This document shows positions 13,523-32,175 of a stretch of DNA of 32,837 nt, piece after piece (the stretch's first letter is position 1; each line of letters starts with the position of its first letter). Origin of the DNA: Actinomycetes bacterium (GTDB lineage Bacteria > Actinomycetota > Actinomycetes > Nanopelagicales > Nanopelagicaceae); the NCBI GenBank assembly GCA_025355805.1, contig JANXYY010000042.1, positions 1 to 32,837 of the forward strand, given 5' to 3'. The notes under the pieces were generated by a model. The model saw nothing but the letters and a program-made list of their open reading frames with translations. It was not told the DNA's origin and searched no databases. The position numbers were made by a program, and so were the translations under genes.

Positions 13523-14713
13523 GTGAGCGAGTCGACAACATTGATTACGGTTACCGGCACTGACCGACCAGGAATTACGGCCGCCCTATTTTCACTCCTG
13601 GCCGAGGACGAACAGATACGTGTTCTCGACCTTCAACAAGTCGTGATTCGCGGCAAACTCACTCTCGGCACCGTGATCTCCGAACCCAGACAGCCGACAC
13701 TTTTACTCAAACGCCTCGAAGACCTAGCGCTCGCCGAAGGTGTCCATCTCACTGTGGTCCAGAGCGACAATGGGCAACCCGCTTCGGTTGAAGAAGACCA
13801 TCTCTACGTGACCGTCATGAGCGCAGAACTCAAACCAGTTGCCCTGGCCTTGGTGGCCGGGAATTTGGCTAAGAGTGGGGCAAACATCGAAAGAATCATT
13901 CGAATCGCTGCCTACCCGATTACGGCGATTGAATTCCAAATTATCGGTGCTCCCCTCGATCTCTTGCAACGAACGCTAAGCGAATCCCCGAGGATTCCCG
14001 GAGTTGACATCGCAGTTCAACGTGGTGGGCTCTCCAGACGCGGCAAAAAACTTGTGGTTATGGATGTGGACTCCACTCTGATCCAGGATGAAGTTATCGA
14101 ACTGCTGGCTCAGGAGGCTGGCGTCTTTGAACAGATTAGGGAGATTACAGAAAAGGCAATGCGCGGAGATCTCGATTTTATCGAGGCGCTAACGGAGCGG
14201 GTTGCACTTCTCAAGGATCTGCCAGTCTCAGCCATTGAAGCGGTGCAAAAGCAAATTCGATTAACGCCTGGCGCCCGTACTTTGATTCGTACGTTGAAAC
14301 GCCTCGACCACCGGATCGGACTTGTTTCTGGAGGTTTTCACGAGGTTATTGACCCATTGGCCGCCGAGCTTGGAATTAGTTTGGTCGCTGCAAATCGCCT
14401 TGAAATCTTTGACGGGTTACTAACCGGCCGAGTGATTCCACCAATCATTGATCGTGCTGGGAAAGCCCGAGCCCTCCAAGACTTTGCGAAACAGGCCGGC
14501 GTTCGGCTTTCTCAAACCGTTGCGATCGGCGATGGGGCCAACGATTTGGACATGCTTGCAATCGCGGGCCTTGGAATTGCTTTTAATGCAAAGCAAGTTG
14601 TTCAGGATGCGGCCGATACCTCTGTGAGCGCTCCATTTTTGGACGGAGTTCTTTATTTGTTGGGTATCACGCGCGAGGAAGTCGAGAACGCGGATCGATC
14701 TAGTGGGGTCTAA
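13523..14713 (+). CDS. serB: Phosphoserine phosphatase with two N-terminal ACT domains
   Basis: ACT motifs (LITVTGTDRPGITAALFSLLA; HLYVTVMSAELKPVALALV), HAD motif VMDVDSTLIQDEVIELLA, GDGANDLDMLAIAGLGIAFNAK. Confidence 0.95.
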   Translation: MSESTTLITVTGTDRPGITAALFSLLAEDEQIRVLDLQQVVIRGKLTLGTVISEPRQPTLLLKRLEDLALAEGVHLTVVQSDNGQPASVEEDHLYVTVMSAELKPVALALVAGNLAKSGANIERIIRIAAYPITAIEFQIIGAPLDLLQRTLSESPRIPGVDIAVQRGGLSRRGKKLVVMDVDSTLIQDEVIELLAQEAGVFEQIREITEKAMRGDLDFIEALTERVALLKDLPVSAIEAVQKQIRLTPGARTLIRTLKRLDHRIGLVSGGFHEVIDPLAAELGISLVAANRLEIFDGLLTGRVIPPIIDRAGKARALQDFAKQAGVRLSQTVAIGDGANDLDMLAIAGLGIAFNAKQVVQDAADTSVSAPFLDGVLYLLGITREEVENADRSSGV

Positions 14714-15612
14714 CTTGAATATTTGAAGGAGGTTGCTCCCTCGCCCTGTAGAACGTCAGAATAGTTTTTGAGCAATTCCAGATTTCGCTCTGCCAAGTGA
14801 TCAAAGGATTGCCCCACGCTAGAACCAGGCGTGAGATTCTGCATTGCCTTCACTGGATCCAAGCGCGCGCTAACCCACCCCTCGTGAGTTGCCCCTCTGG
14901 CGATAACTTCAGCAATTGGGGTAACGATCATGGAATTACCAAAATAGAGTGCACCACCAGGATCGGCACCAACCGCATTCGCACCAATCACAAATACATG
15001 ATTGTCATAAGCTCGTGCACGATTGGTTAGTTCCCAAATATCTGCCGAACGCAAAAGCGCCGAAGGGCGAGCGATGATTTCTGCCCCCAGTAATGCCTGG
15101 ATTCGAGAAAGTTCGGGATAATCACCATCGAAGCAGATGATCATGCCAATCTTGCCAAGCTCAGTGTCGACAACGGCAACCTGATCGCCAGGAGTTACCC
15201 ATCCCCCACGCGAAAATAATTCCGAGCAAAACGGATGCGTCTTGCGATAGCGCCCCAAGATTTCACCCGTTGGACCAATCAGAACCGACGAGTTAAAAAC
15301 TTCCCCGCGACGATCTCCCCGCTCGTATGTTGCATGCACGAGGTGAATACCAAGCCGAGCTGCGACATCAGTGAATGGCGCGGTTAATCGACCTGGGATG
15401 ACATCAACCAGATCCCACAGTTGCTCAGGTGAAATTCCCGGAGTGAATCCAGTCGTCACGGTTTCTGGAAGCACCACAAGGTTGGCCCCGGTGCTGGCGA
15501 CGCACCGCTCAATAAAGTCGATCGCTTTCGCGATATTGGCTTTGACAGATGCTGCAGTCAAAGGCCCTGGTACCGGCGATATTTGAATCGCAGCTGCTGT
15601 AAATTCGCGCAT
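14710..15612 (-). CDS. Carbon-nitrogen hydrolase (nitrilase/amidase superfamily)
   Basis: Glu-Lys-Cys triad contexts: VVLPETVTTGF, GRYRKTHPF, GMIICFDGDYPE; GAAAGG RBS; next to the CoxG end. Confidence 0.93.
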   Translation of the reverse strand: MREFTAAAIQISPVPGPLTAASVKANIAKAIDFIERCVASTGANLVVLPETVTTGFTPGISPEQLWDLVDVIPGRLTAPFTDVAARLGIHLVHATYERGDRRGEVFNSSVLIGPTGEILGRYRKTHPFCSELFSRGGWVTPGDQVAVVDTELGKIGMIICFDGDYPELSRIQALLGAEIIARPSALLRSADIWELTNRARAYDNHVFVIGANAVGADPGGALYFGNSMIVTPIAEVIARGATHEGWVSARLDPVKAMQNLTPGSSVGQSFDHLAERNLELLKNYSDVLQGEGATSFKYSS

Positions 15613-15624
15613 TCGTCAAGCCTT

Positions 15625-16239
15625 TCAGTGAGAGATAAGCCAACCAACGATAACGCCAATCAACGCGATAGCTGCGCCGATTGAAAGAAGTGAAAGATTG
15701 CTCGATTGCGTGGCTGTCAAGGCATCGGAGTTAATTGTGAGTGGCTGTAATGTCTCGGTGCGCGGTAAAGCCTGGACCACCGAGGAGGTTTGCGCTCTGG
15801 TATCACCCGAAAGATAACGATCAACGCTTTTAAAGAATTCGCCAGCAGTCTTCTTGGCCACTCCCCCAAGAACTCTTTGGCCTACACCGGCTATCACTCC
15901 GCCGACCACCGCATCGGCGTCGTAAGTTAGAAGCGTCCCGGCGCCTTCGGCAGTGAGTGTTATTTGCACTTCGGCTTGAATAGTTCCCGGGGCACCCGAA
16001 CCTGAGGCACGCATCGTAAAACTGTTGGGTGGTACCCGATTGCTTAAATCAACTTGGCCTACGTAACTACCCTTGATGGCCGCCACGCCTGCGCTGATCA
16101 CCATTTTGTAGGAATCGGGACCGATTTGTTCCAAGGATTGACACCCGGGCAAAGTCCTCGTTAGAACTGCCGGATCAGTCAGTGCGGCAAATACTTGTTC
16201 AGGGCTCTGGCCGATGTTCGCGGATCCGGCAATTTTCAT
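15625..16239 (-). CDS. CoxG/SRPBCC family protein (carbon monoxide dehydrogenase subunit G-like)
   Basis: MKIAGSANIGQSPEQVFAALTDPAVLTRTLPGCQSLEQIGPDSYKM...GTLLTYDADAVVGGVIAGVGQRVLGGVAKK; C-terminal TM helix as in CoxG. Confidence 0.92.
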   Translation of the reverse strand: MKIAGSANIGQSPEQVFAALTDPAVLTRTLPGCQSLEQIGPDSYKMVISAGVAAIKGSYVGQVDLSNRVPPNSFTMRASGSGAPGTIQAEVQITLTAEGAGTLLTYDADAVVGGVIAGVGQRVLGGVAKKTAGEFFKSVDRYLSGDTRAQTSSVVQALPRTETLQPLTINSDALTATQSSNLSLLSIGAAIALIGVIVGWLISH

Positions 16240-18647
16240 TTCTGCTTCTCCCCTATTTTTAAAGTTGGCACAAGACCATTTTGATGATCAATTCGGAGTT
16301 GCCACAATTCGCTCGGCGAAATTGGCATCTTTCTAATCTCGAAACCTTCGGCATCTTCGATGGCAGAAGCCAGTAACGCCGAGCCTGGGATGACCCCAGC
16401 TTCGCCAGCACCCTTGATTCCGAGTGGATTAAGTGGAGATGGCGTTTCCAAGTGACCGGTTTCGATGAACGGCACCTCGGTCGCATATGGCATTAGAAAA
16501 TCCATAAACGACGCATTGAGAAGCTGCCCATTCTCGTCATATTCCATGCGTTCATACAGCGCTCCGCCAACACCCTGCGCTACTCCCCCGTGAATTTGCC
16601 CTTCGACAATCATCGGATTAATCAGACGTCCGCAGTCATGCACGACCACGTATTTGAGTATCTTGATTTCTGCGGTCTCTGGATCGGTCTCAACGATCGC
16701 CGCATGCATGCCGCTGGCAAACGTCGATTGCAGCGGAGAATAATAGTCGCGGGACTCGAGTCCCGGCTCTTCGCCCTCAAGAATTGGGGGCTTTGACGTG
16801 TCGCCCACTGCAAATTGAGTCGCGGCTTGAGCAGACTCGTCGAAGGCATACCTCAAAGGATTCGAGAGCACCGCAATTGTTTTTAAGGGAATGCAGTTGG
16901 TGGGGTCGCCCTTAACTTGCACGACTCCACCGATGATTTCGAGATCTCGCGGGTCACATTCAAGGGCATCGCCGGCAATCCGAAGCGCTTTCTCGCGGAC
17001 ACTCCTGGCAGCAAGAGCGATCGCGTTGCCACTCATAACAGCTGCCCTCGAAGCAAATGTCCCAACCGCGTAAGCAAATCTTCGGGTATCTCCAGTTTCA
17101 ACAAATACATCCTCGATTGGAACACCTAACTCCTCCGAGACGATTTGGGCAAAGGCTGTCTGATGACCCTGGCCTTGGCTGGTAAGACCCGTTGAAACAT
17201 TAACTCGCCCACTTGTTTCGACTTGGACGAAGCCGCCCTCATAGGGTCCGACACCAGTCCCCTCGACGTAGCAAGCCATACCGATGCCGACTTTGCGTCC
17301 AGAGAGCCGGGCCAATTGCTGGTATTCCTCGAAGTCGTCCCAGCCAATCATTTTCTTAAGCATTGCCATGGATGCTGGGTAATCACCCGAATCGTAAATC
17401 AGTGGGCGACCATCCTGGAAGGTCAAGTGTTGGTCGTACGGCATCTCGCCTGGCTGAATGAAATTTACGTCGCGAACTTTATCTCGACTCATACCCAGAT
17501 AATTGGCGATGGCGTCAATCGTTCGCTCCATCGCAAAAACACCTTGCGGTCTTCCCGCACCGCGATAAGGAGTGACTATCACCGTATTTGTGTAAAGGGA
17601 GGTAAATTCAACGCGGTATGAACTCGGCTTATATGGCCCGAGAAGTTGGGTTGAAGTGATAATCGGAACGATGATTCCGTAGGGTGTGTATGAACCGTTG
17701 TCATGAAAAAAAGTGACATCAAGCCCAGCAATCCGGCCGTCGTCATCAAAGCCGACTTCGACATGATGTGATTGTTGTCGTTCATGTGCACTTGAGATGA
17801 AGTGCTCACGACGATCCTCGGTCCATTTCACTGGATGATTCAAAATTTGGGCTGCCCAAGGAATCAGCACTTCTTCCGGCCAGGGGTGCATGATCTTTAC
17901 CCCGAAACCCCCACCAACATCAGGAGCAGTGCACTCAACTTTCTGCAGGGGAAGGTTCAGTTTGGCAGCGACGGCGGCTCGCACGCCGGTAGAAGTCTGG
18001 GTCGAAGACCAGAGGCGCATCTCTTTAGCGTCAGAATCCCAGACGGCGTACACCCCTTTGCCTTCAAGAGGCATGGAAGCACTGCGTTCAATCTCAAGAT
18101 CTAAAACGATCTGGTGTTTTGAGTTCGCGATCTCGCTGCGGGCATCTCCCACTTCTTGGATCATATGTGCGGAAATGTTGTCGGAAACATCTGCATGCAC
18201 TAAGTGATCGGCAGCGCGCGCAGATTCGATACCAACTACGGGAGGGAAGATTTCATATGACACTTCAATCAGACCAACTGCATCCTCGGCAATGTAGCGA
18301 TTGCTCGCCACCACCATGACGATTGCCTCACCGACGTGCCTCACGTACTCCTTGGCCAACGAATATCCAGTTCGACCTGCAGTCAGGCTCGGGTGTGGAA
18401 TTAAGAGCGGAAGACGCTCCGCCATTCGGCCTTCAAGATCCTCATAGGTATAGATAGCAATGAGGCCATCGACGCTGATGGCTGCCGATGCGTCGATTTC
18501 CAGTATTCGAGCAGATGCATGTGGGCTACGAAGGAAAGCAACTTCATAGGCACCTTGGCCTAAATCATCCAGATACCTGCCATCCCCCCGAACCAAGCGT
18601 GGATCTTCGCGGCGTAATATTGGTTCGCCAAAAGTTCTTGTGGTCAT
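16236..18647 (-). CDS. Molybdopterin-binding xanthine-dehydrogenase/CoxL-family large subunit (not form I CODH)
   Basis: GEPILRREDPRLVRGDGRYLDD, PDVGGGFGVK, TPYRGAGRPQG, TGLTSQGQGHQTAFAQIVSEELG, GIKGAGEAGVIPG. Active-site loop reads PYRGAGR. Confidence 0.95.
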   Translation of the reverse strand: MTTRTFGEPILRREDPRLVRGDGRYLDDLGQGAYEVAFLRSPHASARILEIDASAAISVDGLIAIYTYEDLEGRMAERLPLLIPHPSLTAGRTGYSLAKEYVRHVGEAIVMVVASNRYIAEDAVGLIEVSYEIFPPVVGIESARAADHLVHADVSDNISAHMIQEVGDARSEIANSKHQIVLDLEIERSASMPLEGKGVYAVWDSDAKEMRLWSSTQTSTGVRAAVAAKLNLPLQKVECTAPDVGGGFGVKIMHPWPEEVLIPWAAQILNHPVKWTEDRREHFISSAHERQQSHHVEVGFDDDGRIAGLDVTFFHDNGSYTPYGIIVPIITSTQLLGPYKPSSYRVEFTSLYTNTVIVTPYRGAGRPQGVFAMERTIDAIANYLGMSRDKVRDVNFIQPGEMPYDQHLTFQDGRPLIYDSGDYPASMAMLKKMIGWDDFEEYQQLARLSGRKVGIGMACYVEGTGVGPYEGGFVQVETSGRVNVSTGLTSQGQGHQTAFAQIVSEELGVPIEDVFVETGDTRRFAYAVGTFASRAAVMSGNAIALAARSVREKALRIAGDALECDPRDLEIIGGVVQVKGDPTNCIPLKTIAVLSNPLRYAFDESAQAATQFAVGDTSKPPILEGEEPGLESRDYYSPLQSTFASGMHAAIVETDPETAEIKILKYVVVHDCGRLINPMIVEGQIHGGVAQGVGGALYERMEYDENGQLLNASFMDFLMPYATEVPFIETGHLETPSPLNPLGIKGAGEAGVIPGSALLASAIEDAEGFEIRKMPISPSELWQLRIDHQNGLVPTLKIGEKQK

Positions 18648-19138
18648 GGCTGCATCATTTCGTTACGGATCTCGGCAGCCCGCAATACGCTTTTGATGAT
18701 GTTTTGATATCCGGTACATCGACACAGATTTCCAGCTATTGCTTCCCGGGCCTGGCCCTCTGTGGGATTTGGGTGTTCGTCGAGGAACGCACTTATTGTC
18801 GTGATGAATCCAGGGGTGCAGAATCCACATTGCAAGCCATGACACTCATGGAATGCCTGCTGAACAGGTCCGAGAGATCCATCCTGATTCGCAAGCCCTT
18901 CGACTGTGACAATCTCACCGCCATCAACGCTCACCGCGAATAGCAAGCATGACCGAACCGCTTTGCCGTTGAGTAAAACGGTGCACGCGCCGCACACCCC
19001 ATGTTCGCAGCCAACGTGAGTACCCGTTAGTTGAAGATCATGTCGTAGAAAATCTGAAAGTAGCCTCCGTGCTGGAACGCTACCTGAACGTGGAAAACCA
19101 TTCACGGTCATGCTGACGTCGATGTGCTTCTCGCTCAT
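18644..19138 (-). CDS. 2Fe-2S small subunit of molybdenum hydroxylase (CoxS-like)
   Basis: CEHGVCGACTVLLNGKAVRSC and CGFCTPGFI...NLCRCTGYQNI. Start MSEKHID at 19138 gives an ATGA overlap with the upstream CoxM-like stop. Confidence 0.95.
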   Translation of the reverse strand: MSEKHIDVSMTVNGFPRSGSVPARRLLSDFLRHDLQLTGTHVGCEHGVCGACTVLLNGKAVRSCLLFAVSVDGGEIVTVEGLANQDGSLGPVQQAFHECHGLQCGFCTPGFITTISAFLDEHPNPTEGQAREAIAGNLCRCTGYQNIIKSVLRAAEIRNEMMQP

Positions 19139-20019
19139 TGTTTTACCGCCACCCTGTCCAGCGCATTCTGGTAGGCACACTGGAGTCCCCTTTTCGACAA
19201 AACTTCCACCAGATTTTTACGATATGCAGTGGTAGCGTGAATATCACCATCGGGGTCCACGCTTGAAGCAATAAAGCGCGCGGCTTCGCGCCAGTGCTTG
19301 CTATCTATTCGAATTCCTTTGAGTATTCCACTCACGTCAATGACGATAGGTGTTGGGCCAACCGAGAAAAGCGAGATTCGAGCTCGGTCGATCTGATGGT
19401 CCTCACCAAGGACTATGGCAGCACACACTCCAACGAGTGCATAATCACCATGTCTTCGTGATACCTCTACGCACGCTGTGCCCATCGTCGTCGGCAGCCT
19501 GCCAAAGGTGACGCGGGTCGCCATCTCTCCAGAATTGATCGCGGATTCAAGAGGACCAAGAAAGAAATCAGAACCAGTTACTTCGCGGGTTCCGTCTTGC
19601 CCTTCAATGGTCACGACTCCGTCTAGAAGGGAAAGGACCGCGGTCAATTCACCCGATGGATCGGCATGAGCAATAGATCCAACGCTAGTGCCACGATTAC
19701 GGATGACCGGGTGCGCCACGTACGAAAGGGCTTGAGCGAGCAGCGGTACGGCTTTGCGCACTGCTTCAGAAGTTAACAATTCTTGGTGACGTACCGTCGG
19801 GCCGATTTCAACATGTGTAGGTGAGATTTTGAGAGCAGAAAAATCCGGAACCAAATTGATATCAACGAGTACTTTGGGGCTGGCCAAGCGCATTGATAGC
19901 AAGGGGATCAAACTCTGTCCACCGGCTAGAACCTTCCCATCCTCGCCGGCCGCCGCCAATGCAGCCAGGACACCAGCACGCGTCCTCGGACGCACATATT
20001 CAAAGGGTGCAGGTTTCAC
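19135..20019 (-). CDS. FAD-binding medium subunit of molybdenum hydroxylase (CoxM-like)
   Basis: FEYVRPRTRAGVLAALAAAGEDGKVLAGGQSLIPLLSMRLASPKVLVDIN, AHPVIRNRGTSVGSIAHADPSGELTAVL. Confidence 0.95.
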   Translation of the reverse strand: MKPAPFEYVRPRTRAGVLAALAAAGEDGKVLAGGQSLIPLLSMRLASPKVLVDINLVPDFSALKISPTHVEIGPTVRHQELLTSEAVRKAVPLLAQALSYVAHPVIRNRGTSVGSIAHADPSGELTAVLSLLDGVVTIEGQDGTREVTGSDFFLGPLESAINSGEMATRVTFGRLPTTMGTACVEVSRRHGDYALVGVCAAIVLGEDHQIDRARISLFSVGPTPIVIDVSGILKGIRIDSKHWREAARFIASSVDPDGDIHATTAYRKNLVEVLSKRGLQCAYQNALDRVAVKQ

Positions 20020-20099
20020 GGGACAATGTTGCCCTTTTCTCTGTCGGTACGCGTTGTGAACTTACGCCGATTACTAGGCAAAGTATGGTGGAAAGGATA

Positions 20100-20129
20100 C
20101 GGGGGTCGTCCCGATTGGAGCGACCCCCG
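20100..20129 (-). terminator. Hairpin terminator downstream of the permease gene
   Basis: CGGGGGTCG (20100-20108) / CGACCCCCG (20121-20129), 9-bp perfect stem, located 15 nt past the permease stop; followed on the minus strand by TATCCTTTCC. Confidence 0.7.
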
Positions 20130-20144
20130 CCTAATACCTTGCGC

Positions 20145-21512
20145 TTAGTGGATTTGCGACATCGATTCTGCACCGTGCTTGTGCTTCATTGATTCTGGCG
20201 CCAGGAAGTTTGCCAGGTGCCAGCCGAGAACCGCCACGATTGTTCCTGCTGCGATTCCAGCGATGGAGAAGGTGTTGGTGATCTTCATCGTGACGTCTCC
20301 GACCGCCAAGATGATTCCCGCTGCGAGTGGAACAAGATTGACCGGGCTGGAGAAATCTACTCTGGCTTCAATCCAGATTTTGGCGCCAAGTAAACCGATC
20401 ATTCCGTAAAGAATTGCCGTGATCCCCCCAAGAACTCCTCCGGGAACCGCGGTGATGATTGCACCAAACTTTGGCGAGAGCCCAAAGAGGATGGCAAAAA
20501 TGGCTGCGATGTAATAAGCAAGTGTTGAATAAACGCGAGTAGCGGCCATGACGCCAATATTCTCGGCATAGGTGGTTGTTGGTGAGCCACCCACCGCAGA
20601 GGCGATCATGGTTCCGACACCATCGCCGATAAGGGCTCTACCGAGTACATCGTCCAGGTTTTCGCCAGTCATTTGGGCGACTGCCTTGACGTGTCCCGTG
20701 TTCTCGGCAATCAGCGCAATCACCGCTGGGATGACGAGAAGGACGAAGGAGGCATGGAAAGTCGGGGAGTGGGTGCCCGGCATTCCAAACCAGGCAGCAT
20801 CTTTAACGCCGCTCAAATCAACACGATGTGTTCCCGTCGGAAATGGCTTTCCGGTTGCTGCACTAATTCGGTCGTATCCGTTGAGCTTGGCAATATCGAA
20901 AAGCCAGGAGACAATGAATCCGAAAATTAGGCCCAAGAAGATCGTGATTCGAGAGAGGAAGCCCCGTAGCACGACCGCCATGATCAAGGTGCCCACCATG
21001 GTTATGAAAGCCACCCATTGGTCTTGGGGCCAATAGATTTTGGCGGCTACCGGAGCCAAGTTAAAGCCGATCAGCATCACCACTGCACCGGTTACCGCTG
21101 GTGGTAAAACCTTATTTACCACTGCACCGCCCACGAAGTGGACGAGTACTCCAACCAGTGCCAAGAGCAGGCCTGCGATCAGAATTGCGCCAGTGACTGC
21201 GGCGCTATTGCCACCTCCGGCTCTAATAGCCGCCACACCACCGACGAAAGAAGCTGATGTGCCTAGGTAACTGGGTACTCGGTTACCAACGATCAACAAG
21301 AAAAGGATCGTGGCAACCCCGGACATCATGACCGCTAAGTTCGGATCCAACCCCATGATAAGAGGAAAGACGAAGGTGGCACCGAACATCGCCATCACGT
21401 GCTGTGCACCAAGACCAATCATGCGACCGTAACTGAGTCGTTCGTCCGGGCGAATGACTTCACCCGCACCGACATTTTTGCCGTCCCCTGCAAGTTTCCA
21501 TCCAAAGGCCAT
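20145..21512 (-). CDS. NCS2-family uracil/xanthine permease (start corrected to 21512)
   Basis: LGAQHVMAMFGATFVFPLIMGLDPN, LAENTGHVKAVAQMTGENLDDVLGRALIGDGVGTMIASAVGGSPTTTYAENIGVMAATRVYS. AGGAGGGG RBS upstream of ATG 21512. Confidence 0.94.
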   Translation of the reverse strand: MAFGWKLAGDGKNVGAGEVIRPDERLSYGRMIGLGAQHVMAMFGATFVFPLIMGLDPNLAVMMSGVATILFLLIVGNRVPSYLGTSASFVGGVAAIRAGGGNSAAVTGAILIAGLLLALVGVLVHFVGGAVVNKVLPPAVTGAVVMLIGFNLAPVAAKIYWPQDQWVAFITMVGTLIMAVVLRGFLSRITIFLGLIFGFIVSWLFDIAKLNGYDRISAATGKPFPTGTHRVDLSGVKDAAWFGMPGTHSPTFHASFVLLVIPAVIALIAENTGHVKAVAQMTGENLDDVLGRALIGDGVGTMIASAVGGSPTTTYAENIGVMAATRVYSTLAYYIAAIFAILFGLSPKFGAIITAVPGGVLGGITAILYGMIGLLGAKIWIEARVDFSSPVNLVPLAAGIILAVGDVTMKITNTFSIAGIAAGTIVAVLGWHLANFLAPESMKHKHGAESMSQIH

Positions 21513-21570
21513 GGGCGAGCCCCCTCCTAAAAGGGCGTGGTATCGAGATATGCGTTCCCGACACCCCAAT

Positions 21571-21586
21571 CGTGACCCACGTCACG
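21571..21586. promoter_or_regulatory. Candidate CRP/GlxR-type operator upstream of the permease gene
   Basis: Perfect palindromic arms CGTGAC-CCAC-GTCACG, which contains GTGA-N6-TCAC, the core of CRP-family sites. Confidence 0.5.
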
Positions 21587-21719
21587 AACTTTTTCGCTGG
21601 TCGGAATCTACGGTCTATCCTGCGGTTCAACTTCTCTTAAGAATGACAGGGAAAGTCACCGCTTCTTGTGAATAATTACCAGCGTGTCACGGTCAGATTT
21701 ATATAGTTCAAGCGCTAAA

Positions 21720-23399
21720 TTAAAGACCGCGCATCGTCAAAATTCGAAGTGCCAAAGCGAGTGACAGTCTTAGGTGGGCATCCGTCGTGAACGGGCCAAG
21801 CATTCTTTCCAATTTGCCGATTCGGTATCGCAACGTGTTGTAGTGGAAATGAAGTAGTCGCGAGGTTTCTGCCACATTTAAATTTGTGTCTAACAGAGCT
21901 TGGAGAGTTCTACGAAGGTCGGCCGCCTCGGGGTCGATGCGAGTTGCCAACTCCCCCAAGGTCTCATTCAAAAATGACCTCAGTTCCGCCGAATCGGGTA
22001 CCAGGCTCAGCACCCGAAACACTCCCAGGGAGTCGAAATCAGCTACCCGCCCAGGCCCGTTCACCTGACGCCCGACGCGAACCGCCTGGCGAGCCTGCTC
22101 ATAGGCAGCCGGGAGTCCATCTGGGCCTTTCGTTATGCGCGAAACGCCCGCCGTAAATTTTCGTCTACCACCGCCACCATCACCGGAAACCGCGGCGGCA
22201 ATTTCGTTCAGCGTGGCGATTGGCGTCGCTCCTTCTGAACTGCCAAGGATGGCAACTATTTCGCTACTGAATCCGACCACAGCTGCTCGTGAGTCCCTCG
22301 CATGAACTACCGATTCCCAGGCAAGGGCGAAACGATCCGAAGCGGTCCGAAATTCACTCGCGGTATTGCCGCTTCCCTGATCCAATTCTGCAACAACCAG
22401 TATCAGCGGACGATCCAGGTCCCAGCCCAATGAACTGCTGTACGGAAGAGTGTGTTCGGCGCCACCGGCTCGTCCTGCGAGCAAATCTCGAAGAAAATCG
22501 CCCTGATATTTACTCTCAACGGCTGCAATCGCTTGACGTTTTATGAGAGCGAGCGCAGCAACGGTCGCGGATCGCTCGAGAATCGTCACATCCATCGATG
22601 AAAATGCTCGTTGCGCGAAAACTGCAATCCGACCTTGCTCCCCCTGGGCGGCAACAATTGGAGCGGCTGCGACGAAGGCCATTGTCCCGTCTTCATAACG
22701 CACTTCCTGAGCACCGTAGCGTTGGTGTTCGACAATCAGCCGTCCTGTTGCATCAAATGCTGCCCCCGGAGCGAGACTGCGCTCACCTGCTTCGGCTAAA
22801 ACGCGGCCGTCGGGGGTTGTGACGATGGCCAAGCCTTCGAGTAGGCGGGTGACCTCTGTGACAAGCTCGGGTAATCCACCTCCTTCGAGCACGATAGCAA
22901 CGAGGGCTCGATGGACGGCATCGGAGCGTTCAAGTGTGGCGACATGTCGCTCAAGAATTACCGATAGACATTCATTAAGAATGTCGTCGAAGCCCACTTG
23001 GTCTGGTAGCTCGATAATAGGGAAAGCCAGTCGGTCGGCTTGAACCAGCATGTCGAGCGGAATTCCATCTAAATATCGACCTACTTTGATTGCGATCCCA
23101 GCTAAGCCGAGGGCGTCCAAATCCTCAATCAGAGTTGCGGTGGTCTGTGGGTGTTCGCGAAGGGGGTAGCCAGTGGTCAGCAGGAGTTCGTCAGGTTTGA
23201 CCCAGGACTGTATGTCCGGCACTTCCATCACGTTTAATCTGGCTACCAATCTGGAGAGCCCGGCCGCGCCGGCCACCACCTTCGCATTGGAAAGCGAGGG
23301 GGTTTGGAGCAACTCTTCTAGCGGTACGCCATAGCGACCGCTCTCTCCACTGGGCATCTCCTGGAGCGAAGTTGGCATTTCGTTGGCAATGCCTGACAT
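21720..23399 (-). CDS. PucR-family transcriptional regulator (PurC-like N-terminal domain plus PucR C-terminal HTH); start likely 23399
   Basis: VPLEELLQTPSLSNAKVVAGAAGLSRLVARLNVMEVPDIQSWVKPDELLLTTGYPL; C-terminal LLDTNLNVAETSRLLHFHYNTLRYRIGKLERMLG. Confidence 0.94.
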   Translation of the reverse strand: MSGIANEMPTSLQEMPSGESGRYGVPLEELLQTPSLSNAKVVAGAAGLSRLVARLNVMEVPDIQSWVKPDELLLTTGYPLREHPQTTATLIEDLDALGLAGIAIKVGRYLDGIPLDMLVQADRLAFPIIELPDQVGFDDILNECLSVILERHVATLERSDAVHRALVAIVLEGGGLPELVTEVTRLLEGLAIVTTPDGRVLAEAGERSLAPGAAFDATGRLIVEHQRYGAQEVRYEDGTMAFVAAAPIVAAQGEQGRIAVFAQRAFSSMDVTILERSATVAALALIKRQAIAAVESKYQGDFLRDLLAGRAGGAEHTLPYSSSLGWDLDRPLILVVAELDQGSGNTASEFRTASDRFALAWESVVHARDSRAAVVGFSSEIVAILGSSEGATPIATLNEIAAAVSGDGGGGRRKFTAGVSRITKGPDGLPAAYEQARQAVRVGRQVNGPGRVADFDSLGVFRVLSLVPDSAELRSFLNETLGELATRIDPEAADLRRTLQALLDTNLNVAETSRLLHFHYNTLRYRIGKLERMLGPFTTDAHLRLSLALALRILTMRGL

Positions 23400-23406
23400 G
23401 GGTAGC

Positions 23407-23428
23407 ACCGTAGCGAACCGGATACCTT
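23407..23428. promoter_or_regulatory. Divergent pair of leaderless-type promoters for pucR-like (minus) and the DUF2877-fdrA-DUF1116 operon (plus)
   Basis: Minus TACGGT (23407-23412), 7 nt from ATG 23399. Plus TACCTT (23423-23428), 6 nt from ATG 23435. Confidence 0.6.
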
Positions 23429-23434
23429 CCTGTC

Positions 23435-24151
23435 ATGGAGCATCTGGTGGCATCTTTTCTCCTGAGCCCATTTTTGACCCGACCCTGCTCGAATTTGGAA
23501 ATCCTGGGGTCCTCAAGTTCTCTCATCTGGCTGGCCCTCGACGGCCAGGCCGTAACGATTCAGCGTTCTGCCCCTGACTCTCAAATTGCCTTGCCAAGTT
23601 CGATTTTCTTGGGTGGTGAAAAACTCTTGACGGCTCTGGAAATATCGCTGTGTGATGGGCGTCTAGCTTTAGACCGTTCACCGCTTCTGATCACAAGGTG
23701 GTGGCGTCCACCCAGAGCACCATTGGTTCACATCGAGCTCTCCTTTACTCCCGCACCGAAAATTGAGGCTCTGCTAGGTCTTGGCCGTGGCCTGACTCCC
23801 GAGGGTGATGACCTGCTCGCGGGTTGGTTGATAGCGGCGCGTTCAATCGGGCACCCAGAATTCGAAGAAGTCCGCGCCCAGATTCTCTTGAATGCATCCC
23901 GTAAAACCACCACTTTCTCAGCGGCTCTTCTAAAATTCGCAACTGAGGGATATGGGATTGCGCCTCTCATCGAGTACGTGAACGCGTGTCTGCGATGCTC
24001 GAATAAATCTAATGAGATCAGAAGGCGATTAGAACGCGTTGGTCACACGTCAGGGGAATCGCTAGCGATCGGCGTTGAGATCGCTTTAGGGTTCCACAGC
24101 AACGGGATAGATTTCGGTAAATACCCTCTTCTACAAGGAGCAATCGCATAA
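23435..24151 (+). CDS. DUF2877 protein (YlbF/AllH-like), oxamate carbamoyltransferase-type subunit
   Basis: LLGLGRGLTPEGDDLLAGWLIAARSIG motif; position directly upstream of FdrA and the DUF1116 gene. Confidence 0.8.
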   Translation: MEHLVASFLLSPFLTRPCSNLEILGSSSSLIWLALDGQAVTIQRSAPDSQIALPSSIFLGGEKLLTALEISLCDGRLALDRSPLLITRWWRPPRAPLVHIELSFTPAPKIEALLGLGRGLTPEGDDLLAGWLIAARSIGHPEFEEVRAQILLNASRKTTTFSAALLKFATEGYGIAPLIEYVNACLRCSNKSNEIRRRLERVGHTSGESLAIGVEIALGFHSNGIDFGKYPLLQGAIA

Positions 24152-25629
24152 TGGCCCAAGTACATATCGAAGTTAGACCTGGGGCATATCGTGACTCCGT
24201 GTCGTTGCTCGAAGTGAGCCGTGCTGTTGCTTCGAGCCCCGGAGTGGAAGATGCCATCGTCGCGATGGGGACACCGCTAAATGTCGACCTGATGCGCGAA
24301 CTTGGTTTTCATCTCGATCAACCAAGCCCCAACGATTTAATAATTGCGATTCGAGCGATCGACCAAGCAGCAATTATCAACGGGCTCTCCACGATGGCGG
24401 CGGAATTTTCGTCAATCGACCAGCGTGCGCGATCTGCAAGTGGTGATGGCCAACTCGCTCCTCCAAGGAGCGTGGGTCGCGCGCATGATGCAGATTTAGC
24501 CCTCATTTCGGTCCCGGGGACCGGTGCGTTCGCGGAAGCAATTGACGCACTCGAAGCTGGTCAATCAGTCATGCTCTTCAGCGACAATGTGCCCATCTGG
24601 CAAGAAATTATTTTGAAAGAGTTTGCCTCAAGTCGCAACTTAATCGTGATGGGACCCGATTGTGGAACAGCCGTGATTGGCGGAGTCGGTCTCGGTTTTG
24701 CAAATGTAGTAAGACCAGGACCCATAGGGATTGTGGCGGCGTCTGGAACCGGTGCCCAACAAGTACTGGCTCTGTTGGATTTGGCCGGTGTTGGGATAAC
24801 GCACTGCATAGGTGTTGGCGGACGGGATCTTTCTGCAGAAGTTGCCGCTCGGTCGACGATGAGTGCAATCGCGGCACTCGCCGAAGATCCCGACACGAAA
24901 ACGATAGTTCTCATCTCGAAACCGCCAGCGGCGGAAGTCGCCGAATTGGTCAGGTCGAGCACTAGCGCGATTTCAAAGCCCGTCGTATTTGCCCTCTTAG
25001 GTGAAGGTTCGCCAGATCTGACAAAAACTACGGAAGAAATTCTAGGGACAATCGGCGTTGTAGTACCCGATTGGCCGTCCTGGGGCGAAGTGTCCACGCT
25101 ACGAGCGACCGGGAAATATCTTCGTGGACTGTATTCGGGCGGCACCATCTGCGATGAGGCAATGGTGATCGCAGCGAATCAGTTGGGCCAGATTCGTTCG
25201 AACATTCCGCTACGAGCGGAGTGGAAACATGATCCATTCGCAGAATCGATTGAACACACTTTCATTGACTTCGGTGATGACGCGATGACTGTGGGACGGG
25301 CGCATCCGATGATTGATTCAACATTGCGAATTGAACGTCTGCATAAGGAGATGGCCGATCCGAGTTGCGGAGTCATCATCATGGATGTGGTTCTCGGACA
25401 TGGAGCAGACGCCGACCCAGCACCTGCTCTCTCATCGGCGATTAGTGAAGCACACGACCATGGCCAGAAAACACCTGTAATTATTTCTCTCATCGGGTCT
25501 TCAGGCGACCCGCAGGGGCTTATTCGACAGGCTGAGATCCTCAGTGGTGTGGGCGCTTTCGTCACCGTAAGCAATGCCACCGCCGTGAACATCGCAATTT
25601 CGCTAATCCAGATGAACGAGGCGTCATGA
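24151..25629 (+). CDS. fdrA: FdrA family protein (succinyl-CoA-synthetase-like; AllF-like)
   Basis: VHIEVRPGAYRDSVSLLEVSRAVASSPGVEDAIVAMGTPLN, NLIVMGPDCGTAVIGGVGLGFANVVRPGPIGIVAASGTGAQQVLALLDLAGVGITHCIGVGGRDLS; RBS AAGGAG. Confidence 0.93.
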   Translation: MAQVHIEVRPGAYRDSVSLLEVSRAVASSPGVEDAIVAMGTPLNVDLMRELGFHLDQPSPNDLIIAIRAIDQAAIINGLSTMAAEFSSIDQRARSASGDGQLAPPRSVGRAHDADLALISVPGTGAFAEAIDALEAGQSVMLFSDNVPIWQEIILKEFASSRNLIVMGPDCGTAVIGGVGLGFANVVRPGPIGIVAASGTGAQQVLALLDLAGVGITHCIGVGGRDLSAEVAARSTMSAIAALAEDPDTKTIVLISKPPAAEVAELVRSSTSAISKPVVFALLGEGSPDLTKTTEEILGTIGVVVPDWPSWGEVSTLRATGKYLRGLYSGGTICDEAMVIAANQLGQIRSNIPLRAEWKHDPFAESIEHTFIDFGDDAMTVGRAHPMIDSTLRIERLHKEMADPSCGVIIMDVVLGHGADADPAPALSSAISEAHDHGQKTPVIISLIGSSGDPQGLIRQAEILSGVGAFVTVSNATAVNIAISLIQMNEAS

Positions 25630-27053
25630 ACGAACTCCGTGGCTTGCTACAGAATAACAATCTCAAGATCGCCACGGCCGGAGTCCCTCTTCTGGCTGAT
25701 GCACTGTCCGACCAATTAGTGCCAATCTCCCGGATCGACTGGCGCCCCGCGGTTCCCGGTTCGCAGGAGGCACTAAACCGAGTGATGGCCGATGGACGTC
25801 GCGACGGAGCTAATTCGTTAGCACTTGCTCGAATGTTGGCGGCGGGGGCGTTGTTGGTAGATGTGCGGCAGGCTAAAGATGCTCTTGGACTCGAACCTGG
25901 AACATTTCTTCACGCAGGTCCGCCATTGACGTGGGAGCGTGCTTCCGGTCCAATGCGCGGCGCACTCTTGGGTGGAACGATCTTTGAAGGAATCGCCTCC
26001 GATGCCGAAACTGCCGAGAAGATCTTGTCCAGCGGCGGTATCGATTGGGAACCCTGTCATCATCGCGATGCCGTAGGCCCAATGGCCGGGGTTGTTACAC
26101 CCTCAATGTGGATGTTCGAGCTCTTAGATCCCACCACTGGTAATCGTTCATGGTGTTCCCTCAACGAAGGACTTGGCAAAGTATTGCGTTACGGGGCCTA
26201 TTCGGGCGAAGTTATCGATCGATTGCGATGGATGAGAGAGGTTCTCGGGCCATTGCTCAAACTTGCGGTTCAACGCCGTAACGAAAGTCCTGCGGGACCA
26301 ATCGATGTACAAGCGATTCTTGCTCAAATGATTCAGATGGGCGACGAAGGGCACAATCGAAATCGAGCAGGGACTCTTATGTTTCTTCGTGACCTGTTGC
26401 CTGATCTCATCGAATCCGGTGCGGCAAATTCAGATGTAGCGACGTCGGCTCGATTCATGGGTGGAAATGATCATTTCTTTCTGAATTTGGTAATGCCGGC
26501 CTGCAAATTACAGACCATGGCGGCACGCAATATCCCGGGGTGCTCCGTCGTCACCGTTATGGCCAGAAATGGCACTGACTTTGGGGTACAGGTTTCGGGA
26601 ACGGGCGACACTTGGTACACCGGGCCCGCCGAGATTCCAGTGGGACTCTTCCTTGGTTCTTACACCGAAAAGGACGCGAACCCCGACATCGGAGATAGCG
26701 CAATAACTGAAACCGCTGGAGTAGGCGGATTCGCAATGGCGGCGGCTCCTGCAATTGTCCGATTTATCGGAGGTACGGTGCCGGACGCACTTGCGGCAAC
26801 TCGTCGGATGTACGAGATCACCGTTGGCGAAAATGTGAGTCGCGGAATTCCTGTACTTGAGTTTCGAGGATCTCCCACCGCAATCGATGTAACTCGAGTG
26901 ATTCGCACCGGAATTTTGCCGCAAATTAATACCGGAATGGCCGGTCGGATTGCCGGGGTTGGTCAAGTTGGTGCCGGGTTAGTGAACCCGCCTATGGAGT
27001 GCTTCGAAGGCGCTATTCAGGGGCTTGCACAGGCCGCACCTCAGGTGGGTTGA
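25626..27053 (+). CDS. DUF1116 family protein (YlbE/AllG-like)
   Basis: Overlaps the fdrA stop (ATGA). HRDAVGPMAGVVTPSMWMFEL, DEGHNRNRAGTLMFLRDLLP, FMGGNDHFFLNLVMPACKLQTMAARNIPGCSVVTVMARNGTDFGVQVSG. Confidence 0.92.
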   Translation: MNELRGLLQNNNLKIATAGVPLLADALSDQLVPISRIDWRPAVPGSQEALNRVMADGRRDGANSLALARMLAAGALLVDVRQAKDALGLEPGTFLHAGPPLTWERASGPMRGALLGGTIFEGIASDAETAEKILSSGGIDWEPCHHRDAVGPMAGVVTPSMWMFELLDPTTGNRSWCSLNEGLGKVLRYGAYSGEVIDRLRWMREVLGPLLKLAVQRRNESPAGPIDVQAILAQMIQMGDEGHNRNRAGTLMFLRDLLPDLIESGAANSDVATSARFMGGNDHFFLNLVMPACKLQTMAARNIPGCSVVTVMARNGTDFGVQVSGTGDTWYTGPAEIPVGLFLGSYTEKDANPDIGDSAITETAGVGGFAMAAAPAIVRFIGGTVPDALAATRRMYEITVGENVSRGIPVLEFRGSPTAIDVTRVIRTGILPQINTGMAGRIAGVGQVGAGLVNPPMECFEGAIQGLAQAAPQVG

Positions 27054-27583
27054 AAATCCAGATCATCGCCAACTGCAAGGTCATCGATCGCGATTTCATC
27101 CACAAGCCCTCCTTGGTTCCGCAAATAATTGCGGGCTCCCTTATCACCTGAGAGCGAATTCAGGAGCGGTCTCCAGTGTTCACGCGTGATTACGACTGGA
27201 TGCGTTGGTGCGCCGCTATAGGTTGCGGTGGCCAATCCGCGCTCGCTAGCGAGTACTCGGGTGAAGGCAGCAGGCGTCAGACCAGGAAGGTCCACCAGCG
27301 TCAAGCAGATCCGCTCGTAGACCGAATCGATGGCGTACTCGATCGCAACTCTAAGCGAGCTAGAAATACCCTTTTCCCAATTCGGATTGATGAGAGTCTC
27401 ATCTGCGTCCGGGACCTCGCCAATCCAAGCCCCAAGTACCACCACAACTGATTGGCAACCGCCTAGACGTAGATTGGCAACCGCCCGATCAACTAACCGA
27501 ATGCCTTGGTAATTGAAGGGCGCTTTCGGTCCACCAAAGCGAACGCCTGCTCCGGCTGCTAAGGCAACTCCCAACGTTTTCAT
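27041..27583 (-). CDS. MobA/MocA-like NTP transferase (molybdenum cofactor cytidylyltransferase-like)
   Basis: LAAGAGVRFGGPKAPFNYQGIRLVDRAVANL, LVDLPGLTPAAF, YSGAPTHPVVITREHW...GDKGARNYLRN. Confidence 0.88.
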   Translation of the reverse strand: MKTLGVALAAGAGVRFGGPKAPFNYQGIRLVDRAVANLRLGGCQSVVVVLGAWIGEVPDADETLINPNWEKGISSSLRVAIEYAIDSVYERICLTLVDLPGLTPAAFTRVLASERGLATATYSGAPTHPVVITREHWRPLLNSLSGDKGARNYLRNQGGLVDEIAIDDLAVGDDLDFQPT

Positions 27584-28675
27584 TTAGAGATGGATTGGCC
27601 CTTCGGATTCTCGCAAAGGCAGACCAGTTCCACCCCATCGATATTTAACTATCTCAGCCGCGATCGAAAGCGCCGTTTCTTCTGGAGTTCGAGAACCAAG
27701 ATCTAAACCAATGGGTGAATGTAGGCGGGCAATCGATTCAGGACTGACTCCTTCCTCACGAAGCCTGGCTACGCGATCGCGGTGAGTTCTTCTAGATCCC
27801 ATTGCTCCGACGTATCCGGCGCTCGATTCAAGGGCAATCTTTAAAACTGGAACATCAAATTTTGGGTCATGAGTAAGCACCGCGATGGCCATGCGCGGGT
27901 CAATCGTTTGGGTTGCCAAATATCTATGTGGCCAATCGATGACGACCTCATCGGCGTCGGCGAAGCGTTTTTTAGTGGCAAAAATTGAGCGAGCATCACA
28001 AACCGTCACGTGGTAACCCAAAAACTTGCCCAATCTGGCAAGCGCTGCTGCAAAATCTATTGCACCAAAGATTATTAGGCGGGCCTTTGGTGCTGATGAA
28101 TTAACAAATACTTCGATTTCAGTCTCAAGGCGTTGACCATCAATGCCATATCTGAGGAGTCCACTATTGCCGTTGGCCACCATCCCCAGAGCATCATCGA
28201 AAATCGCCTCGTCGAGTCTCTCGCTGCCGGTACTACCGACGAAGCCTGTGGGGGAAATAACCAAGTGAGTTCCTACCCAAGCATCTCCGCGGACGACAGT
28301 AGCAACCGCGAATCCCTCACTTTCGCCACGATTCCGGAGCAACTCGGAAACCCATTCATCATTCATGCATATTCGTTCGGTAAAAACTTCAATCGTTCCA
28401 CCGCAAGTTAAACCGACGGCGAATGCCTCGTCATCACTCACGCCGTAGGTGCTGTACGCGCATTTGCCGTCTGCCAATACAAATTTTGAGACGTCATAAA
28501 GCGCGCCTTCTACGCAGCCACCACTAACTGAACCAACAACCTCATCGTCACCTGTCACCATCATTGAGGATCCTGCGGGTCTGGGCGCTGAATTCCACGT
28601 TTTAACGACCGTCGAAACGACGAACGCGTCCCCATCGCCCGCGTGGTTTCGGATTTCGGCAATCAGCTCGATCAT
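27584..28675 (-). CDS. XdhC/CoxF family molybdenum hydroxylase maturation protein
   Basis: STVVKTWNSAPRPAGSSMMVTGDDEVVGSVSGGCVEGALYD; LIIFGAIDFAAALARLGKFLGYHVTVCDAR; YVGAMGSRRTHRDRVARLREEG; HSPIGLDLGSRTPEETALSIAAEIV. Confidence 0.94.
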   Translation of the reverse strand: MIELIAEIRNHAGDGDAFVVSTVVKTWNSAPRPAGSSMMVTGDDEVVGSVSGGCVEGALYDVSKFVLADGKCAYSTYGVSDDEAFAVGLTCGGTIEVFTERICMNDEWVSELLRNRGESEGFAVATVVRGDAWVGTHLVISPTGFVGSTGSERLDEAIFDDALGMVANGNSGLLRYGIDGQRLETEIEVFVNSSAPKARLIIFGAIDFAAALARLGKFLGYHVTVCDARSIFATKKRFADADEVVIDWPHRYLATQTIDPRMAIAVLTHDPKFDVPVLKIALESSAGYVGAMGSRRTHRDRVARLREEGVSPESIARLHSPIGLDLGSRTPEETALSIAAEIVKYRWGGTGLPLRESEGPIHL

Positions 28676-29799
28676 CTGGGGTCGGCAATCTCATGGCATA
28701 GATCATCAAAAGAATTGAATGAATGACCACTGACGAGCCGATCAAGATGTGGCAGTGCGATCTCCATCCCTGCAGTTAGCGGTGCAAATCCGGGTCTATG
28801 CATATGCGGATTTACCCAAATGATTCGTTTGGCAAGACGCGAAAGATGAGCGACTCCGTCGCCTAGCATCTGCACATCGCCTCGCTCCCAACCATCGCTA
28901 GCGATTACGACGATCGCCCCGCGAGCAATACTTCTGGCCCCGAATTCGCGAATGAACGAACGCAATTGGCTACCAAGCCTGGTACCACCAGACCAATCGG
29001 GAATATCATGGAGGGCCAAATTGATTGCTCTTTCTACGTTTGATTCGGAAAGCGATCGGGTCACGCGAGTCAGACGCGTCCCGATAGTAAACACTTCGGT
29101 CGACCTACGAGCCCTCTTCGTCGCGTAGGCAAATTGTAAGTAGGCACTTGCATACGCCCGCATGGATCCGCTGATGTCAATGAGGAAAAGAATTCGGCGC
29201 GGTGTTCGACGACGATCACGTAGAAATATATCGGACACTTCTCCTCCGGCTCTTAAAGCCGCACGCACCGTTTTACGCCGATCAAAATAATCTGATCCTC
29301 CAATTTCAAATCTACGAGAACGTCTGGTTAGTGCCGCTGGTCGAAGTTTGGCTATCCAGCCTTCGACTAGCGCTCGATCGGTAGGCGAGAGCAGCGCTAT
29401 GTCTGCCTCGCGCAAGGATTCAACGGCCGAGGCAGAAACGACTGGTTTCTCACGAGGTCCTTGGTCCAGATCTGCCTCCCCTAGATCTACGCCCACCGGA
29501 ATCGCGCGCTCACTCGTTGCGGCATTTGGTTGATCCGCAACGCCGAGCAAACCTCCAAACCAGGCTTGAAAGGCTCGGTCATAAATTGGCAAATCCTCTT
29601 TGCGTGAACAGAAGGAGAGCTTGCCCGCCAGGTAAACATGATCACGGTCGCTTGAGCCCAGAGCCAAGACCGCGCGGTACAGGGTTTGGACTCGATTCTG
29701 ATCAACCTGGATACCTAAGGAGCTCAACGTATGAGCAAAACCGAGGAGCACTCGGTCGATCTCAGGATGCGAGTAAGGCTCGGACTTGGGCAATGTCAT
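28672..29799 (-). CDS. VWA-domain CoxE-like protein (start likely ATG 29799)
   Basis: LFLIDISGSMRAYASAYLQFAYATKRARRSTEVFTIGTRLTRVT (MIDAS DxSxS), VIASDGWERGD, IIWVNPHMHRPGF, typical of CoxE. Confidence 0.92.
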   Translation of the reverse strand: MTLPKSEPYSHPEIDRVLLGFAHTLSSLGIQVDQNRVQTLYRAVLALGSSDRDHVYLAGKLSFCSRKEDLPIYDRAFQAWFGGLLGVADQPNAATSERAIPVGVDLGEADLDQGPREKPVVSASAVESLREADIALLSPTDRALVEGWIAKLRPAALTRRSRRFEIGGSDYFDRRKTVRAALRAGGEVSDIFLRDRRRTPRRILFLIDISGSMRAYASAYLQFAYATKRARRSTEVFTIGTRLTRVTRSLSESNVERAINLALHDIPDWSGGTRLGSQLRSFIREFGARSIARGAIVVIASDGWERGDVQMLGDGVAHLSRLAKRIIWVNPHMHRPGFAPLTAGMEIALPHLDRLVSGHSFNSFDDLCHEIADPR

Positions 29800-30607
29800 C
29801 TTGATACTTAAGGAGTGCGCCCAACGAGAGGCCGGCAAGTTCTGGTGAAATATCTCGTGCCCCAAGCGCAAGTAGAGTTGCTGCCCAGTCGAGTGATTCA
29901 GCGGTCCCCGGCGCTTTGATCAGATCCAATTTACGAATTCGCTCAACCGTGGTAGCGATCTCGTGTGCCAGTGCCTCACCTATCCCGGGCAAGCGAGTTC
30001 GAATAATGGTGATCTCCCGTTCGATGCTTGGGTGTTCCAGGAATTGATAGAGACACCGACGTTTGAGTGCATCATGGACGTCGCGCGTGCGATTAGAGGT
30101 CAAAATGGTGAGAGGCGGTGATTGTGCGGCGATCCGTCCGAGTTCGGGGATCGTAATTGCGAAGTCGCTTAATATTTCAAGCAGAAAGGCTTCAAATTCG
30201 TCGTCTGCTCGATCTACTTCGTCGATCAAGAGAACACATGGTTCTTCGAGTGCGCGCAACAATGGCCGAGCCAAGAGAAATCGTCGGTCATAAAGATCGT
30301 GTTCAATTTGATCAACGTCGTGCATCCCTGCACTTTCAGCGGCGCGGACGTGCAGAATTTGCCTTGGAAAATCCCAGTCATAAAGTGCTTGCGAGGCATC
30401 TATTCCTTCATAGCATTGCAATCTGATGAGCGGCAATTCCAACACTTCGGCCATCGCTCGAGCCAGTTCCGTTTTACCAACGCCCGGATCTCCTTCGAGG
30501 AAGAGCGGTTTGTTCAACCTCATCGCGAGCCAGAGCGCCATGGCGCTGCTCTCCTCCGCTACATAGCCAGTCGCGGCCAGCGCGACGCGAATTTCTTCGG
30601 CATCCAT
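29762..30607 (-). CDS. MoxR/CoxD-type AAA+ ATPase (start corrected from 30835 to ATG 30607)
   Basis: Walker A GDPGVGKTELARAMAEVL, Walker B CVLLIDEVDRADDEFEAFLLEIL, sensor LTILTSNRTRDVHDALKRRC. A TAATCT box lies 7 nt upstream of ATG 30607. Confidence 0.94.
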   Translation of the reverse strand: MDAEEIRVALAATGYVAEESSAMALWLAMRLNKPLFLEGDPGVGKTELARAMAEVLELPLIRLQCYEGIDASQALYDWDFPRQILHVRAAESAGMHDVDQIEHDLYDRRFLLARPLLRALEEPCVLLIDEVDRADDEFEAFLLEILSDFAITIPELGRIAAQSPPLTILTSNRTRDVHDALKRRCLYQFLEHPSIEREITIIRTRLPGIGEALAHEIATTVERIRKLDLIKAPGTAESLDWAATLLALGARDISPELAGLSLGALLKYQDDIAQVRALLAS

Positions 30608-30614
30608 GGTGGCT

Positions 30615-30620
30615 AGATTA
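30615..30620 (-). promoter_or_regulatory. TAnnnT -10 box (TAATCT), leaderless-type, for MoxR/CoxD
   Basis: TAATCT on the minus strand, 7-nt spacer, ATG at 30607. Confidence 0.6.
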
Positions 30621-31904: not shown

Positions 31905-31911
31905 GCTTCCC

Positions 31912-32175
31912 CTAAAGTTTTTCGTAGACATCAGTTGGGGTAATGCCACGAGCAAGCATCATCACCTGCAGGTGGTATAGAAGTTGGCTGATTTCAAGAG
32001 CAAGATCGGCACCACTCTCGTACTCGGCGGCGAGCCAGACCTCCGAGGCTTCCTCCACAACTTTCTTACCAATCGCATGTACACCGGCATCAAGCAATTC
32101 AACAGTTCGCGAACCGGTGGGACGATCTCTGGCTGCGGCTTCCAATTGGGGCCACAGTTCGTCGAAGGTCTTCAT
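31912..32175 (-). CDS. hisE: Phosphoribosyl-ATP pyrophosphatase
   Basis: [53 protein letters not shown]...[18 protein letters not shown]; adjacent to hisG. Confidence 0.95.

Follow-up and report, generated by a model that had tools for sequence, protein, structure and literature searches.

Contig C111 (JANXYY010000042.1), a stretch of 32,837 nucleotides (nt) referred to here as the window, comes from an Actinomycetes bacterium of the family Nanopelagicaceae and carries a contiguous block of 14 genes (positions 14710–30607). This block probably encodes the first half of a variant oxidative pyrimidine pathway, one that would conserve ATP. It joins a molybdenum hydroxylase of the CoxMSL type to homologues of the three subunits of the Escherichia coli transcarbamylase AllFGH, and a barbiturase and a carbamate kinase are encoded on another contig (C129) of the same genome. 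The sequences show the genes and their order, co-occurrence and linkage, the barbiturase-type residues and an active site unlike that of CO dehydrogenase; from these and from homology we propose the function, with each substrate and reaction. The assembly is fragmented (1.83 Mb in 185 contigs), and because the genome is 87% complete, absences from it are provisional. Comparisons were made with 150 related genomes and 396 genomes of the phylum; the union of the two sets holds 48 genomes with this CoxL, counted by a match above the NF040766 cut-off. These genomes span many families, and the counts and Fisher values are uncorrected for shared ancestry.

Three components of the proposed pathway, CoxL, AllG and a barbiturase-family (PF09663) protein, keep company across Actinomycetota. 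Among the 150 relatives, all 21 CoxL genomes have a PF09663 match (Fisher value 1e-23) and 20 have AllG, the exception being a genome that is 72% complete (G104). In the phylum set, PF09663 is present in 24 of 30 CoxL genomes (Fisher value 9e-30) and AllG in 26. Across the 48 CoxL genomes of the union, PF09663 is found in 42, AllG in 43 and all three in 38, bearing out the co-occurrence of the AllFGH trio with CoxL that an earlier note, made from the window's sequence, had proposed to look for. The three genes lie on one contig within 13–45 kb in 14 genomes; in G147, CoxL is about 19 kb from the barbiturase gene and AllG is 1.7 Mb away.

The substrate of AllFGH is a linear N-acylurea, and no gene of the cluster encodes an enzyme that opens cyclic ureides. 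As a first test of a pyrimidine pathway, a search of the window's own genome for a barbiturase (PF09663) gave one strong match, on C129, in a row that reads HyuA–HyuB–type III CoA-transferase–ACC-like carboxyltransferase–carbamate kinase–barbiturase–SseB-like protein. Its barbiturase shares 78% identity with the Protein Data Bank (PDB) entry 5HWE ‘Barbiturase’ (635 bits, compared with at most 306 bits for cyanuric-acid hydrolases) and about 47% with TrzD. Arg188 of the cyanuric-acid hydrolase of A. caulinodans is conserved in the family except in two subgroups, one of them barbiturase, for which Gln is given at this position (PMC4051656). In our alignment, Asn occupies this position in the C129 protein, in 5HWE and in the close PF09663 partners of CoxL in relatives, and Arg does so in TrzD and in proteins from Aminobacter and Klebsiella plasmids (L201 and L202); Asn here and Gln in the published account differ, but the residue is non-Arg either way. 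The C129 protein is most likely the ring opener of the pathway. The earlier note had the nitrilase homologue of the block open or deamidate the ring product, and this C–N hydrolase fits a malonamate amidase better; the note's alternative, that the middle steps lie elsewhere, agrees with what we find, as the missing middle and end steps are on C129.

A sister genome repeats the C129 row beside the same housekeeping genes (fabI and pheST). Because the flanks of both contigs (hisG for C111; fabI and pheST for C129) are kept in independent assemblies, mis-binning of either contig is unlikely. Next after the barbiturase gene comes one for an SseB-domain protein (232 amino acids (aa)), both in the window's genome (L180:11558–12256) and in several relatives. 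Elsewhere in this genome (G000), two near-identical imidazolonepropionase genes lie on contigs C71 and C42 (L205 and L209), suggesting that the genome bin may hold two strains. Matches to PF01979 comprise a TRZ/ATZ-type deaminase, two hutI copies, a dihydroorotase and two unassigned proteins. Searches for urease, uricase, allantoinase and dihydropyrimidinase found none of them in this genome at 87% completeness.

In the window, all 14 genes named by the earlier note are present, with best-family E-values ranging from 2.8e-13 (MoxR) and 7.6e-21 (AllH) down to 0 (CoxL), and they are arranged in three transcriptional blocks. The first, on the minus strand, begins with an NCS2 nucleobase permease (20145–21512; PF00860, 2.3e-77), a proposed uracil importer that is RutG-like in that its best NCBIfam model is RutG (371 bits, under that model's cut-off). 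It continues with the CoxM-type FAD subunit (19135–20019; PF00941, 9.9e-39, and PF03450), the CoxS-type [2Fe-2S] subunit (about 18644–19138; PF01799, 8.6e-31, and PF00111), the CoxL-type large subunit (16236–18647; NF040766, 1481.7 bits), a CoxG-like protein (15625–16239; PF06240, 6.5e-28) and the C–N hydrolase (14710–15612; PF00795, 2.8e-46). In the second, a PucR-family regulator on the minus strand (21720–23408; PF07905 and PF13556) diverges from the plus-strand genes for the transcarbamylase subunits AllH/DUF2877 (23435–24151; PF11392), AllF/FdrA (24151–25629; NF004760, 398 bits) and AllG/DUF1116 (25626–27053; PF06545, 6.3e-91). The third, again on the minus strand, comprises a MoxR/CoxD-type AAA ATPase (29762 to about 30607; PF07728; NF047784 at 248 bits, below cut-off), the VWA protein CoxE (28672 to about 29799; PF05762, 6.2e-47), an XdhC/CoxI maturation protein (27584–28675; PF13478 and PF02625) and a MobA/MocA-like molybdenum-cofactor nucleotidyltransferase (27041–27583; PF12804, 7.7e-24); it stands behind hisG (31059–31955) and a small bPH-domain gene (30618–31040), which adjoin its CoxD end. 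Operon-like overlaps of 1–4 bases join AllH to AllF, AllF to AllG, CoxM to CoxS, CoxS to CoxL, CoxL to CoxG and XdhC to CoxE.

The leader of the NCS2 gene (21512–21600) contains a possible hairpin, GCCC...AGGAGG...GGGC, that would hide the ribosome-binding site and is seen in sister genomes too. A riboswitch here was considered and rejected, the leader being without an Rfam match, and among more distant relatives no common leader is obvious upstream of the gene. A perfect palindrome, CGTGAC-N4-GTCACG (GTGA-N6-TCAC), precedes NCS2 at 21571–21586 in the window only; it is not present in four NCS2 leaders of the sister genus or before hyuA.

AllG is present in 23 of the 150 related genomes, and its neighbourhoods there read CoxD–CoxE–XdhC–MobA–AllG–AllF–AllH–PucR–NCS2–CoxM–CoxS–CoxL–CoxG–C–N hydrolase, often beside hisG, which holds the same place by the cluster in relatives from several families. 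The conserved gene set spans several families of the class as well as Nocardioides, Pimelobacter, Aeromicrobium, Embleya and Nonomuraea. The earlier note had asked whether the gene order extends beyond this genome; it does, in many further actinobacterial genera, which is far more than chance would give. The analysis supports the note's central suggestion, that an N-heterocycle is imported, hydroxylated by CoxMSL and processed in a single pathway whose FdrA trio salvages a carbamoyl group. In relatives with the same cluster, the C–N hydrolase is 63–73% identical and neighbours CoxG or CoxL; in others, a PF01425 amidase takes its place. In the sister genus, a glyoxalase-like gene (about 127–130 aa) that is missing in the window follows AllG (L037:19396–19779 and L040:10594–10986), and close to the cluster in one sister genome the minus strand carries an FMN riboswitch (Rfam RF00050; L040:14658–14785).

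The neighbours also bear on the type of ring. A cytosine deaminase gene lies near the cluster in Actinomadura and in genomes G109 and G447, and genes for thymidine phosphorylase and a nucleoside ABC transporter lie near it in Nocardioides and Pimelobacter. Together with the RutG-like permease, the barbiturase and the CoA-transferase, these point to a pyrimidine context, and not to the purine or ureide substrates towards which the earlier note had leaned.

In the pathway that we propose, uracil, and perhaps thymine too, would be imported by the NCS2 permease and oxidized to barbiturate by CoxMSL, whose maturation would involve CoxD, CoxE, XdhC and the MobA-like protein. The C129 barbiturase would open the ring to give ureidomalonate, which the AllF–AllG–AllH complex would cleave with phosphate into malonamate and carbamoyl phosphate. 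Carbamate kinase, whose gene adjoins that of the barbiturase, would convert carbamoyl phosphate to ATP, NH3 and CO2, and the C–N hydrolase would split malonamate into malonate and NH3. Malonate could then pass through malonyl-CoA to acetyl-CoA by way of the type III CoA-transferase and the carboxyltransferase-like protein. Each uracil would thus yield one ATP, two NH3 and malonate, with both nitrogens released as ammonia without urease.

Several observations weigh against this proposal. The barbiturase and carbamate kinase genes lie outside the window, on C129, and no conserved regulatory motif was found; a shared promoter motif linking C111 and C129 was considered and rejected. Six CoxL genomes are without a PF09663 match. 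In two such loci that we read, AllG stands beside HyuAB and CoxL, with a PF04199 hydrolase in one; in G179 (f36), AllFGH lies beside CoxL and HyuAB and a PF04199-type hydrolase occupies the barbiturase's place. Conversely, two Actinomadura loci and genome G110 have the other genes of the set but not this CoxL; in Actinomadura macra, one stretch holds AllHFG, cytosine deaminase, permease, C–N hydrolase, CoA-transferase, the ACC-like protein and barbiturase, with no CoxL there. HyuAB has no assigned step: its best NCBIfam match, caprolactamase, is below cut-off, and we can only guess at a thymine-derived substrate or an ATP-driven lactam cleavage. The substrate of the AllFGH homologue is set by analogy, and the characterized enzyme takes oxalurate and oxamate. 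Carbamate kinase alone also fails to separate the proposed layout from one without AllG, because three genomes of the latter kind (f77) carry one elsewhere; we rejected it on these grounds as a phylum-wide marker of the AllFGH branch. In favour of the proposal, strong matches to carbamate kinase within the family of the window are found in 5 of 5 cluster-bearing genomes and in none of the 11 tested genomes without the cluster.

Beyond Actinomycetota, AllFGH genes lie beside a PF04199 ‘cyclase’ hydrolase in Anaerolineae, Clostridia, Elusimicrobia, Hydrogenedentota and archaea (L057, L059, L061, L097, L115 and others among L055–L124), often with a distant molybdenum hydroxylase, an NCS2 permease and a C–N hydrolase. 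Such loci are likely to represent a parallel pathway with another ring opener.

The three f77 genomes bring forward the alternative that survives best, although we regard it as unlikely: an oxidative pyrimidine pathway in which AllFGH stands off the main line, serving a side substrate, and the C–N hydrolase or another amidase cuts ureidomalonate into malonate and urea. The classical pathway is reported to end in this way, with ureidomalonase, malonate and urea (PMC3758960, PMC7662398). The f77 genomes encode CoxMSL, a PF09663 protein and a PF01425-type amidase, side by side in G321 and split over short contigs in the other two, and have no AllG match; this is what the classical three-enzyme, urea-forming route should look like, and we count that layout in favour of our own reading as well. 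Their ring openers, only about 40% identical to barbiturase, sit less well with it. Similarly, Rhodococcus sp. ZPP has CoxMSLG, permease, PucR, XdhC, CoA-transferase, HyuAB and amidase genes with no AllFGH nearby. Against this alternative stand AllG, which is found in 43 of the 48 CoxL genomes and adjoins CoxMSL in most loci, the placement of carbamate kinase next to barbiturase, and the failure to find urease in the window's own genome. Compared with the pathway of Rhodococcus erythropolis (uracil/thymine dehydrogenase, barbiturase and ureidomalonase), the system described here has a barbiturase of the same subgroup, pyrimidine-salvage neighbours in relatives of the window and the same proposed passage from uracil through barbiturate and ureidomalonate to malonate. 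It differs in that ureidomalonate, instead of being hydrolysed to urea, would undergo phosphorolysis by the AllFGH homologue and, through carbamate kinase and an amidase, yield ATP and two NH3, and in that the first enzyme has a gene candidate.

In E. coli, AllFGH forms oxamate and carbamoyl phosphate from oxalurate (PMC11326118). The window's subunits are 36% (AllF), 44% (AllG) and 36% (AllH, over 102 aa) identical to their E. coli counterparts, and in a tree of 118 AllG rows the window's AllG falls in a clade of 40 actinobacterial proteins with 99% support, apart from E. coli AllG. Ureidomalonate is oxalurate with one additional CH2, and therefore malonamate and carbamoyl phosphate would be the expected products if, as we infer by analogy, the homologue uses ureidomalonate rather than oxalurate. 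If the genes served a purine or ureide pathway to oxalurate, AllFGH would be a true oxamate carbamoyltransferase and CoxMSL a dehydrogenase of the xanthine type; this reading would account for the homology to the E. coli enzyme, and PucR and NCS2 proteins occur in purine use too. We consider it very improbable, given that uricase and allantoinase were not found in the window's genome, that CoxL scores 382 bits against xanthine dehydrogenase models with a cut-off of 780, that barbiturase is both co-occurring and linked, and that AllG branches separately from its E. coli counterpart. The complete conventional allantoin route that the earlier note had named as a possible objection is likewise not seen. 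The two systems (AllFGH–AllK in E. coli; PMC11326118) share three homologous subunits and a carbamate kinase in the genome; here, however, the AllG clade is separate, the proposed substrate is one carbon longer and carbamate kinase is encoded with barbiturase, not with AllFGH.

CoxL itself is titled ‘aerobic carbon-monoxide dehydrogenase large subunit’ in NF040766. Its active-site loop reads PYRGAGR in the window and in nearly every close member that we read (FRGAGR in one), without the Cys of the CO dehydrogenase loops YRCSFR (1N5W) and YACSFR (8UEM). The family name is probably a misannotation, judging from the motif in the members read. The best PDB match is quinoline 2-oxidoreductase (1T3Q, 443 bits), the nearest solved large subunit and an N-heterocycle hydroxylase, although it belongs to another pathway and the homology is distant. 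An aerobic CO dehydrogenase with unrelated catabolic genes alongside would fit the family title, and form I enzymes share the subunit set, the M–S–L order and the CoxD, CoxE, CoxG and XdhC accessories; the missing Cys and the constant association with barbiturase and AllG in a nucleobase context make this reading extremely unlikely. A nicotine or nicotinate route was also rejected: it is hinted at by the best matches of PucR (PmfR) and the MobA-like protein (NboR), but these are weak and far under cut-offs, and the neighbours give no support. By linkage and co-occurrence only, CoxMSL is a candidate uracil/thymine dehydrogenase. To our knowledge, uracil dehydrogenase is known by its activity and has no gene assigned to it. 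Our search of the open literature found no uracil dehydrogenase gene and no link between AllFGH and barbiturase, which is weak evidence of novelty as most subscription papers lie outside that search.

Catabolism of cyanuric acid (an s-triazine), suggested by the AtzD-family ring openers that sit with AllFGH, carbamate kinase and NCS2 genes on Aminobacter and Klebsiella plasmids, has next to no probability here, since cyanuric acid requires no hydroxylase and the plasmid proteins have the cyanuric-type Arg whereas the partner here is barbiturase-type. On plasmid pSR8 of Aminobacter sp. SR38 (L201:6052–19413), an AtzD-family hydrolase with 100% identity to TrzD in the part compared is in a row with fdrA, DUF1116, DUF2877 and carbamate kinase genes; pHS08204 of Klebsiella pneumoniae (L202:2443–11372) has such a row with an AtzD-family hydrolase and an NCS2 permease. 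These operons resemble our system in combining a ring-opening amidohydrolase with AllFGH-type genes and carbamate kinase (arcC), and differ in their cyanuric-type hydrolase and in having no molybdenum hydroxylase. The plasmid rows suggest that cyanuric-acid catabolism includes phosphorolysis of the AllFGH type.

One published account describes the oxidative pyrimidine pathway as rare (PMC3758960). If our proposal is correct, it would supply testable gene candidates for the first enzyme and the last amidase of this pathway and reveal a branch, so far unreported, that yields ATP through the action of an AllFGH-type transcarbamylase on ureidomalonate; the role of AllFGH, an enzyme assigned only recently, would then reach beyond allantoin. 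If the NF040766 family is indeed misnamed, counts of CO oxidizers among Actinomycetota would be inflated. A broader reading, to which we give even chances, identifies the missing uracil dehydrogenases with the ‘CO dehydrogenase group 5’ molybdenum hydroxylases of Actinomycetota and takes AllFGH/DUF1116 enzymes to be general N-acylurea phosphorylases, acting on ureidomalonate from pyrimidines, oxalurate from allantoin, and carboxybiuret or biuret from triazines. Were this general reading true, pyrimidine rings would be broken with recovery of ATP and without loss of urea.

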